64,000 bases of DNA, from assembly GCF_000959445.1 (NCBI RefSeq), contig NZ_CP009631.1, forward strand, positions 2,976,001 through 3,040,000, written 5' to 3'. The notes beneath the pieces were generated by a model. It saw nothing but the letters and a program-made list of their open reading frames with translations, did not search any database and was not told where the DNA came from. Source of the DNA: Burkholderia vietnamiensis LMG 10929 (GTDB lineage Bacteria; Pseudomonadota; Gammaproteobacteria; Burkholderiales; Burkholderiaceae). Below, one piece after another: positions 32,926 to 36,089 of the stretch. Each line of letters starts with the position of its first letter. Positions within the stretch are counted from its first letter, which is position 1. Position numbers and translations under genes: made by a program.

Positions 32926-34158
32926 TCAGCGCGCGGTGGCTTCGTGGGCCGCGAGCACCTGCTCGACCGCCTTTTCGAAGCGCTTCACGCCTTCGTCGAG
33001 CAGGTCGAACGGGATCACCAGCGACGGCACGAAGCGCAGCACGTTCGGGCCGGCGATCAGCATGATCAGGCCGTTGTCGGCGGCCGCGTTGACGAAGTCC
33101 TTCGCGCGACCGTCGAACGCCGCGGTCAGTTCCGCGCCGACCAGCAGGCCCTTGCCGCGGATGTCCTTGAAGATGCCGAAGCGTGCGTTGATGCGTTCCA
33201 GCGCGCCTTTCAGGCGCACGCTGCGTTCGCGCACGCCTTCGAGCAGCGCGGGCTCGGCGATCAGTTCGACGACCTTGTCGGCGATGGCCGACGCGAGCGG
33301 GTTGCCGCCGTAGGTGGTGCCGTGGACGCCGACCTTGAAGTGCGCGGCGAGTTCGTTGGTCGTCAGCATGGCGCCGATCGGGAAGCCGTTGCCGAGTGCT
33401 TTGGCGGTGGTGAGGATGTCGGGCGTGACGCCCGTATCCATGTACGCGTAGAAATGGCCGGTGCGGCCGACGCCCGTTTGCACTTCGTCGAAGATCAGCA
33501 GTGCGTCGTTCGCATCGCATGCGTCGCGCAGGGCTTTCAGGAAGGCCGGATCGGCCGGGATCACGCCGCCTTCGCCCTGCACCGGCTCGACGATCACCGC
33601 GCAGGTTTGCGGGCCGATCGCGGCCTTGGCGGCTTCGATGTCGTTGAACGGCAGGTGTTTGATGCCGGCCGGGACGGGGCCGAAGCCTTCGGAGTATTTC
33701 GGCTGGCCGCCGACGCTGACCGTGAATAGCGTGCGGCCGTGGAACGACTGGACGAACGAGACGATTTCATATTTGTCGGCGCCGTGGCGATCGAATGCGA
33801 CGCGGCGGGCGAGCTTGAGGGCGGCTTCGTTCGCTTCGGCGCCCGAGTTCGCGAAGAATGCGCGGTCGGCGAAGGTCAGCGATTCGAGGCGTTTCGCGAG
33901 GCGCAGGACCGGTTCGTTCGTGTAGCCGTTGCCGATGTGCCAGAGCTTGCGGCCCTGTTCGTCGAGCACCTTCAGCAGTTCCGGATGGCCGTGGCCTAGC
34001 GACGTGACCGCGATGCCGCATGCGAAATCCACGTACTCGCGGCCGGCCGTGTCCCACACGCGCGAGCCCTCTGCACGGTCCGGCACGAACGGCGCGGGGG
34101 AGAATACCGGCACCATCACTTCGTCGAATGTCTGGCGGGTCACGGTCGAGGTCGTCAT
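32926..34158 (-). CDS. aruC: Succinylornithine / acetylornithine aminotransferase (class III, PLP)
   Basis: The 410-residue class-III aminotransferase has the expected motifs: [18 protein letters not shown], the [11 protein letters not shown] aspartate that holds the PLP ring, and K253 in [13 protein letters not shown], the Schiff-base lysine. In the aru/ast pathway it moves the delta-amino group of succinylornithine to 2-oxoglutarate. The start at 34158 ([14 protein letters not shown]) was chosen over an upstream ATG because a purine-rich GGAACGACC leader precedes it. It is the first gene of the six-gene aru operon; the preceding 890 bases contain no gene but a large inverted repeat. Confidence 0.94.
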
Positions 34159-35048
34159 GGTCGTTCCTTTCGGGTTCGTAAGAGGGTTCAACAGGTTCAA
34201 GTTTAGGTAAGGGCTGCGCAAGCGTCTTGCGGAATTGCGACGGGTTCTATCGGAAGCGGTTTTGTCGGGCTGACTTGCTGGTGGCGCTGGCGTTGGCGTT
34301 GGCGTGAAATACCTGTGATCGTGTCGGTCTATTAGCGTCGCCCCTGCGCGGGGCGGCGGTTACTTTTCTTTGTCTTGCCAAAGAAAAGTAACCAAAAGAA
34401 AGGCGCTCAGATAACGCATGACCTCCCGGTGCCATGGCACCCGGAGTGGCCACCGCCTAAGTGTCCGCGCCAGACAGGAACCCGGAGTGGTTCGAGAAAT
34501 AGTTCTGACATCACTCACCACACCACAGAGCGGTATACCGCCCGCCAGCTCCATCCTCGCTGCGCTCGGCTGCAAGGTACTTCAACCGCAAAATCTGCGC
34601 CACGTGCGCGAGCTGGCCATGAAATAAGTGCTCCGGATCAATTAGCCCTTCACGATTACAACCGGACGATTTTCTCCGTGCTGGCGCGATGGGGAACCAT
34701 TGCGGATACACGGATCGCTCACCTTGAAACCGGGGAGTTGCCCGTCGTCCGAGCGAAGCGAGGACGGAGCTAGCGGGCGGTATACCGCTCTGTGGTGTGG
34801 TGAGTGATGTCAGAACTATTTCTCGAACCACTCCGGCTTCGTTACTGGCGCGGACACTTAGGCGGTGGCCACTCCGGTGACCATGGCACCGGGAGGTCAC
34901 GCGTTATCTGAGCGCCTTTCTTTTGGTTACTTTTCTTTGGCAAGACAAAGAAAAGTAACCGCCGCCCCGCGCAGGGGCGACGCTAATAGACCGACACGAT
35001 CACAGGTATTTCACGCCAACGCCAAGTCGCACGACAAAACCGCGCTAG
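34159..35048. other. Intergenic region between the regulator gene and aruC
   Basis: This 890-base gap has no credible gene. Most of it is the inverted repeat described at 34256-35043. Short frames inside both arms read the same repeat sequence on opposite strands. The aru promoter must lie in the roughly 100 bases next to aruC or inside the repeat; I could not identify it. Confidence 0.6.
34256..35043. repeat. Large near-perfect inverted repeat (788 bp) with 179-base centre
   Basis: The core arms are 34293-34569 and 34749-35025, both exactly 277 bases and differing at only about a dozen positions. The repeat extends outward to GCGGTTTTGTCG (34256-34267) and its complement (35032-35043); the left arm carries about 19 extra bases of GGCGTT-like repeats. 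Each arm holds its own 15-bp perfect hairpin (GGTTACTTTTCTTTG, at 34358-34393 and 34925-34960) and a CCCCTGCGCGGGG stem. The right end lies five bases from the stop codon of the regulator gene. No transposase or target duplication is seen. Confidence 0.92.
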
Positions 35049-36089
35049 CTAATCCCCATGACGCTCGACCAACGCCCCAGCCCGCGGCTCACTCCCACCC
35101 CCGGTCTGCTTCTCGAGCCACGCCCGCCGATCCTCCCGCGGCGTCACCCCAAACCGCTCGCGATAAGCATTGGAAAAATGCGCAGCAGAAGAAAACCCAC
35201 AGGCGAGACTGACCTGCACGACCGACTTGCTGGTCCGCTGCAACTGCGTACGCGCCTTGAGCAACCGAAGATTGAGGTAATACTTCGACGGCATCGCCCC
35301 AAGATACTGCCGAAACAACCGCTCGAGCTGCCGCCGCGACACCCCCACCAACCCGGCAATCTCGTCGGTCGTGAGCGGATCCTCGATATTGGCCTCCATC
35401 AGCAACAACGCATCGTTGAGCCGCGGATGCCGCTCGCCGGGCGCAGTAACGAACGGAATCCGCTGCCGCTCCTCGCCGCTGCGCAGCGTGCCGGCGCCCA
35501 GCGCATCGGCAATCCGCTCCGCCAGATCGGCCCCATGCTCACGGCCGATCATCGCCAGCATGAAATCGACCGTCGCCTGCCCGCCCGCACAGGTCGCCCG
35601 ATCACGATCGATCTCGAAGATCTGCTGCGTGACGATCGAACGCTCGAACTGCTCGGCAAACTGCTGATACGTCTCCCAGTTCACACTCACGCGATACCCG
35701 GACAACTGCCCCGCCATCGCCAGCCACCACACGCCGTGGTGAATCCCGCTGACGACCGGCGTACGCTGCCCGACCCGCGCCAGGCTCGCGAGAAACAACC
35801 GATAGTCGGCGAACTGCTGAAACCGCTCCGACACGACGATCAACCAGTCACACGCAATCGCATCGTTGAACGCCGCATCGGCATGCCAGTGCGCACCGCC
35901 GGCGAGCGGCACCGGCCGCCCGTCCCACGAACACACCTGCCACCGATACAACAGCCGCCCGTCGATCTCGTTCGCGAGATTCAACGCATCGACGATCGGC
36001 CCCACACCCGACATCGACACGGGCGGCAACGCAACGATCGCCACCTGCGTCGTGCGGGTGGCGCCTGCGGGACGAGACACCGGGACCAC
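35049..36089 (-). CDS. argR: AraC/GlxA-family transcriptional regulator, probable ArgR of arginine catabolism
   Basis: The protein is about 346 residues, with an N-terminal DJ-1/PfpI-like domain (about 10-190, VAIVALPPVSMSGVGPIVDALNLANE) and a C-terminal AraC DNA-binding domain with two helix-turn-helix motifs (TTDEIAGLVGVSRRQLERLF and VVQVSLACGFSSAAHFSNAYRERFG). No ATG fits; GTG at 36089 or at 36080 is the likely start. It follows hisP by 20 bases on the same strand and precedes aruC. In Pseudomonas aeruginosa, argR is the last gene of aotJQMOP-argR and activates both aot and aru. The position here argues for the same role; the symbol rests on that context. The ligand-binding histidine/cysteine of the DJ-1 part is not obvious. 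Confidence 0.85.
   Translation of the reverse strand: MVPVSRPAGATRTTQVAIVALPPVSMSGVGPIVDALNLANEIDGRLLYRWQVCSWDGRPVPLAGGAHWHADAAFNDAIACDWLIVVSERFQQFADYRLFLASLARVGQRTPVVSGIHHGVWWLAMAGQLSGYRVSVNWETYQQFAEQFERSIVTQQIFEIDRDRATCAGGQATVDFMLAMIGREHGADLAERIADALGAGTLRSGEERQRIPFVTAPGERHPRLNDALLLMEANIEDPLTTDEIAGLVGVSRRQLERLFRQYLGAMPSKYYLNLRLLKARTQLQRTSKSVVQVSLACGFSSAAHFSNAYRERFGVTPREDRRAWLEKQTGGGSEPRAGALVERHGD

Follow-up and report, generated by a model that had tools for sequence, protein, structure and literature searches.

MITEs and REP/BIME sequences are the nearest known kinds of element to the repeat described here. MITEs are bounded by inverted repeats at their ends and carry no recognised gene of their own. 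REPs are dispersed extragenic palindromes of 20-40 bp whose units often stand in opposite orientation as BIMEs or REPINs (PMC2817692, PMC3733652) and whose ends bear a constant GTAG or CGTC tag (PMC3733652). Two further systems bear on the locus. Rfam family RF02421 (Bp1_684) is a small-RNA candidate of Burkholderia pseudomallei; a figure legend names flanking genes that include pdhB and lpdA, and eight of 15 candidates were detected, Bp1_684 not being named among those eight in the section concerned (PMC3521395). Type VI Tae4 effector-immunity modules are represented by the B. cenocepacia pair BCAM1464-1465 on chromosome 2 (PMC6612558). The "palindromic GC-rich repeats" of PMC12326997 are junctions of 5-16 bp and a different thing, and PMC10175445 contains none of the terms looked for. 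No description of a paired-arm family was found in the titles and abstracts searched, a coverage outside which most subscription journals lie.

The window analysed is a stretch of 64,000 nucleotides from Burkholderia vietnamiensis LMG 10929 (G and L numbers below are our labels for genomes and loci). Its minus strand carries, in order, an ABC-transporter ATPase gene, an AraC-type regulator gene, the repeat, aruC, aruF and aruG. The aru names hold up, since the NCBIfam models TIGR03246, TIGR03245 and TIGR03244 all score above their cut-offs. We call the regulator ArgR from its position, because its best NCBIfam model, GbdR, scores below its cut-off (281.6 versus 480 bits). An earlier note on this DNA had described a near-perfect inverted repeat at 34256-35043, and our comparison confirms it: the 788 nt comprise two arms of 277 nt (34293-34569 and 34749-35025) that are 96% complementary across a 179-nt spacer, the match extends to the outer ends (34256-34270 and 35029-35043; 93% over 15 positions), the left side has its claimed surplus of about 19 bases (314 nt versus 295 on the right), and each arm has its own perfect 15-bp hairpin. 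As claimed, the right end of the repeat (35043) lies five bases from the regulator stop codon (35049-35051), and the repeat is upstream of aruC, which starts about 97 bases past its left end. The parts of the repeat and the adjoining genes are as follows.

32926-34158, minus strand: aruC of the succinylornithine transaminase family, which heads the aru operon (open reading frame and NCBIfam)
34256-34569, plus strand: left arm with its outer end, 96% identical to the right arm across 277 bp
34358-34393, plus strand: left-arm hairpin, 15-bp perfect, near-invariant across species including its loop TCTTGC
34423-34446, no strand: second palindrome of the left arm (CTCCCGGTGCCATGGCACCCGGAG)
34530-34541, no strand: GCGGTATACCGC palindrome of the left arm
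34570-34748: centre of 179 bp, aligning poorly with that of most other species
34749-35043, minus strand: right arm with its outer end, from self-comparison
34777-34788, no strand: GCGGTATACCGC palindrome of the right arm
34872-34895, no strand: second palindrome of the right arm
34925-34960, minus strand: right-arm hairpin, 15-bp perfect, near-invariant core
35049-36071, minus strand: AraC-type regulator at the argR position, start codon unsettled

Three open frames, 115-132 aa long, traverse the arms (34375-34773, plus strand; 34511-34900, minus strand; 34865-35212, plus strand), one of which contains FGYFSLARQRKV. They are probably spurious, and similar proteins may pollute databases.

The repeat resembles REP/BIME sequences in belonging to a set of dispersed extragenic palindromes with units in alternating orientation, and single units occur too. 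Unlike REPs, its arms are 200-300 bp long, although each has a 36-nt hairpin core, and they appear to bear no constant GTAG or CGTC tag: by eye, CGTC lies at the base of the GC stem in Burkholderia arms and is absent from a copy in G282, a genome of another genus. As to copy number, there are three hairpin places in the own genome and many more in other genera. With MITEs the repeat shares terminal inverted repeats and, in some genomes, tens of copies; the three probably spurious frames aside, it also has no recognised gene of its own. It differs from them in that most of its length is taken up by the repeated arms, each with a hairpin, and in that no clean target-site duplication was seen in the flanks, which were read by eye.

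The earlier note called elements of this type common between genes in Burkholderia. In this genome the hairpin is not common: the exact 15-mer has five matches at three places, namely the two arms and one further locus. The paired element is unique there, a search with its full sequence returning itself and one other place that shares 81 bp. On these own-genome searches we rejected the idea of an element common in Burkholderia, if that means numerous copies in this genome. Both arms exceed the RF02421 threshold and share the hairpin core of that family.

34281-34369, minus strand: RF02421 (Bp1_684) match from the hairpin to the arm's outer end, 52.6 bits (gathering score 44)
34949-35054, plus strand: RF02421 (Bp1_684) match, 53.8 bits (gathering score 44)

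Judged by these matches, the arms could be a divergent pair of small-RNA genes from the Bp1_684 family. We regard this as improbable, given that the genome's top RF02421 match lies elsewhere: it is a single hairpin unit at G000:C3:1896609-1896720 (L103), scores 118 bits and sits between genes that we take, by eye, to be pdhB-like and lpdA-like. That locus fits the genes named in the figure legend, and the candidate described is a single unit, in contrast to the paired, inverted arms here (PMC3521395). With strict filters, RF02421 matched three of 200 sampled genomes of the order, above the cut-off in one. Since matches occur in so few genomes, the model would appear hardly to see the repeat family, to which this Rfam small-RNA family may nonetheless be tied.

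The repeat is not an oddity confined to this genome, a possibility excluded by matches in 59 of 65 Burkholderia genomes. Among 60 resolved argR-aruC gaps of the genus, both arms are present, whole or in part, in 50, a single arm in one (G041) and short remnants in two (G048 and G049), while seven have none (G014, G015, G016, G028, G039, G043 and G051). Four genomes without a self-comparison match were counted among these 50 on the strength of other comparisons (G010, G021, G063 and G064; the arms are 81% identical in G010 and 87% in G063), and the contig of G023 stops within the second arm. Five more gaps (G001, G006, G013, G025 and G027) lack closure, at a contig end or with aruC unreached, and each has an arm adjoining the regulator. 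Outside the genus we took 18 genomes selected for arm matches elsewhere; the regulator is present in 17, and the gap was resolved in 16 (114-303 bp). A hairpin or arm match is absent from all 16 gaps. The comparison of orthologous gaps that had been proposed in the earlier note finds no arm in seven of 60 resolved Burkholderia gaps and in 16 of 16 from other genera. On a tree of argR and aruC codons, which we rooted on the armless G014, G015, G028 and G051, the armless G016, G039 and G043 fall inside the tree, so that losses must be assumed. An exact pattern search of named genomes returned 25 stretches, every one labelled Burkholderia and mostly, as we take the species, of the B. cepacia complex. 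Full arms at another Burkholderia locus were not found among the matches listed for the own genome and the genus, so recent mobility within the genus is unsupported.

Beyond Burkholderia the arms are dispersed. Of 299 genomes sampled from the family, 125 have a match to the right arm; they belong to 10 of the 25 genera, its own included, and among the matches listed outside Burkholderia it is mostly the outer hairpin region that is covered. Twenty regions that we picked from arm matches, some for looking paired, comprise 16 inverted pairs of one polarity and four single arms (one of them cut by a contig end). Seven pattern matches in G490 make up three inverted pairs and one single unit; the hairpin pattern went unmatched in four of five genomes searched, despite arm-like copies there. 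G282, which we take from its gene order to be Ralstonia-like, gave 101 matches when searched with its own element. Of the 26 places drawn from the best 30 of these, 14 have a single arm and 12 a pair, always in one polarity, which contradicts the earlier view that a head-to-head pair is unusual; two elements lie three kilobases apart. Followed through relatives, one G282 place holds the element in nine of 12 genomes and a short gap in three (a 13th genome has a paralogue only). The three short alleles seem to retain the outer ends of the element, and so may have arisen by deletion instead of never having held it. Seven 50-kb pieces of Paraburkholderia megaplasmids contain six pairs about 510 bp apart, six of six in one polarity, and one single hairpin, with nothing in two of the pieces, and a Variovorax megaplasmid has two joined matches within a convergent gap. 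Copies in other genera adjoin unrelated genes, and a phage search gave no match to the element. A 47-bp match to the hairpin core (91.5%) is also found in a distant genus, in Pasteurella multocida NZ_CP020346.1, CP084164.1 and NZ_CP113523.1. The dispersed copies in sister genera and the armless gaps favour the earlier suggestion of a non-autonomous mobile element or REP-like unit; abundance of the hairpin in the own genome and rarity of the pair find no support.

Comparison of the two arms was possible at 36 of 41 loci, five having been left out for broken or cut arms. Identity averages 93.3% within a genome (range 77-98%) versus 87% between the 36 genomes, and because the arms are closer within than between genomes they evolve in concert. 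The mean between-genome distance is 0.130 for the left arm and 0.131 for the right, versus 0.200 at fourfold sites of argR and aruC (630 pairs), and in a block of about 80 columns round the hairpin most columns are near-invariant across 72 arms, loop included. Mismatches between arms that can still pair as G-U number 216 on the argR/aru strand versus 170 on the other; the excess is on the argR/aru strand in 24 genomes and opposite in nine, with three ties (p 0.014, in genomes that are not independent of each other). This hints at pairing as RNA, although a mutational strand bias could have this effect too. When folded as RNA, the 788 nt are predicted to reach -671.7 kcal/mol versus a mean of -290.4 in 20 shuffles (z -50), and the right arm alone has a z of -3.2 (200 shuffles).

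A giant transcript hairpin of this kind, once cut or terminated, might uncouple argR from aru, as a selected RNA attenuator or insulator. In favour are the predicted fold, the excess of G-U-tolerant mismatches on the argR/aru strand and the retention of both arms in 50 of 60 resolved gaps. However, related copies stand beside unrelated genes in other genera, the pair is missing, single or reduced to remnants in 10 of 60 gaps, and centres of 1.8-2.7 kb as well as IS256-type insertions in four gaps are tolerated. We rate an attenuator or insulator as rather unlikely.

The inward stem of each arm has nine pairs, is GC-rich and is followed by the T-rich GTTACTTTTC. Consensus matching, on which these calls depend, places a GC-rich stem followed by a T-rich tract at four sites of the repeat, compared with 1.3 +/- 1.1 in shuffles.

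34336-34358, plus strand: inward terminator-like stem of the left arm (consensus match), which would meet transcripts from the aruC side
34403-34417, minus strand: weaker outward terminator-like site of the left arm (consensus match)
34901-34915, plus strand: weaker outward terminator-like site of the right arm (consensus match)
34960-34982, minus strand: inward terminator-like stem of the right arm, then GTTACTTTTC (consensus match), which would meet transcripts leaving argR

Against a terminator, the stem sits a few bases from its T-tract. By our own crude calling of open reading frames, of which an earlier pass classed at least two places otherwise, the 26 places of G282 are co-directional in 14 cases, convergent in 11 and divergent in one. 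The corresponding figures in Paraburkholderia are 3/2/1 versus 129/46/40 of 215 gaps there, gene annotation being present in one of the seven plasmid pieces taken for context; one further Paraburkholderia element lies in an annotated divergent gap. A preference for the 3' ends of genes is seen in G282 only and not in Paraburkholderia. Single units in co-directional gaps of G282 are oriented against the genes in six of seven cases, so the inward stem cannot be the main terminator of those units. Our view is still that the units may terminate transcripts where genes end.

Short centres measure 95-379 bp and diverge fast, with conserved end motifs that occur in either order. Some alignable centres lie flipped relative to each other, as in G046 versus G047, which are 83% identical once flipped, and in G042 versus G007, G026 and G040. 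Orientation was assigned for 30 of the 36 loci, six with undecided ends or centres above 400 bp being omitted, and divides these 30 tips 13 versus 17. Parsimony requires at least five changes, versus a mean of 10.0 and a lowest value of 5 in 1000 label shuffles; orientation thus tracks the tree, yet switches several times. A centre could be misplaced in a short-read assembly, but both orientations occur among assemblies of three to four contigs (G042 and G059 versus G026, G032 and G040). Short tandem repeats of GTGCTCAT-like units are present within the centres of G058 (L067) and G018 (L071).

These flips, their recurrence on the tree and their presence among assemblies of few contigs would suit an invertible switch, in which recombination over the arms turns the centre round and alters expression of a neighbour. 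Yet with one genome per species the orientation changes are observed between species only, a scan of 34100-35100 found no promoter-like site (sigma-70 consensus only), and the Tae4 matches in the longer gaps described below point one way in nine of nine cases. Such a switch is in our view a long shot.

The whole gap exceeds 1.2 kb in 13 of 60 cases. In eight of these 13 gaps PAAR, Tae4 and membrane-protein matches occur together, and a ninth has a degraded set (G024). We take this cassette to be typical of type VI secretion; it sits between the arms in other species, whereas this window has none. PAAR and Tae4 domains were found above cut-off with Pfam PF05488 and PF14113 in one representative of each kind, NCBIfam gave no match for the Tae4 or DUF6402 proteins, and the 111-aa membrane protein matched neither Pfam nor NCBIfam. 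The Tae4 frame is open from ATG in all eight cassettes, the PAAR frame is open and of equal length in six (G031 lacks the usual start and G030 has a different end), and the membrane-protein match starts with ATG in six and TTG in two. From its position, our guess is that the membrane protein confers immunity. Other gaps hold other genes: four tandem DUF1120 genes (fimbrial-like) lie between the arms in G011 (L111), and a DUF6402 gene with a membrane-protein gene lies beside the single arm of G041 (L112). IS256-type matches occur in four gaps (G024, G030, G033 and G056), and in G033 and G056 they are the only extra gene. The IS256-type transposase genes are situated within or between the arms in four species (L073, L074, L109 and L110).

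That the cassette takes the place of the short centre between the arms, and does so patchily over the tree, might indicate a composite mobile cassette, with the arms as ends of a transposable unit carrying effector genes. This is doubtful: the arm-cassette-arm arrangement was met at the argR-aruC locus, the one locus looked at for it, most paired regions of other genera have a short centre, and the IS256-type genes are confined to four gaps and resemble separate insertions. On the points set against each, we dropped both the phase switch and the composite transposon as main readings.

Replacement of the centre is seen in the sister tips G012, with a cassette, and G061, with a 202-bp centre, whose alignment breaks at the inner ends of the arms. 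A 63% homologue of the membrane protein encoded after the DUF6402 gene of G041 lies behind the Tae4 cassette of G012. We tentatively propose, at well below even odds, that the conserved paired arms are a docking site at one chromosomal address throughout Burkholderia, where the centre is repeatedly swapped for accessory modules: the PAAR-Tae4 cassette, the DUF1120 array and, next to the lone arm of G041, the DUF6402 module. Genes for membrane proteins would perhaps sometimes stay behind as orphan immunity, and the homologue in G012 looks like such a gene.

We favour, with a probability of roughly 0.65, the reading that the repeat is a settled relic of a mobile repeat from a dispersed Burkholderiaceae family, which would act as a terminator and a recombination hotspot. 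This reading starts from the observed distribution of the arms, their pairing and shared polarity, their concerted evolution, the flipping and replacement of centres between species, and the cassettes; the two functions are read from sequence. The family plan would be two inverted arms, each built round the same terminator-like hairpin core. The element would have arrived between argR and aruC in a common ancestor of most Burkholderia, once a clade with an armless gap had branched off. Long inverted repeats get cut and are then repaired by recombination, which would explain the homogenised arms, the flips and the replacement of the centre. As a hotspot, the long repeat would allow pairing or recombination from arm to arm to homogenise the arms and flip the centre, and breaks at the repeat, along with exchange via the conserved flanks, would permit gain and loss of accessory modules like PAAR-Tae4-membrane protein. 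In each arm the GC stem and T-rich tract would end transcripts arriving from either side, and the main role of the element at this locus would be that of a terminator between argR and aru.

On this account, intergenic repeats that lie scattered through Burkholderia, Paraburkholderia and their relatives would belong to one two-arm family, and the question is raised whether an Rfam "sRNA" family is partly a dispersed repeat. A single locus followed over some 60 species offers a natural test case in which to study homogenisation, flipping and gene uptake by long inverted repeats, and points to a small site at which antibacterial effector modules are gained and lost.
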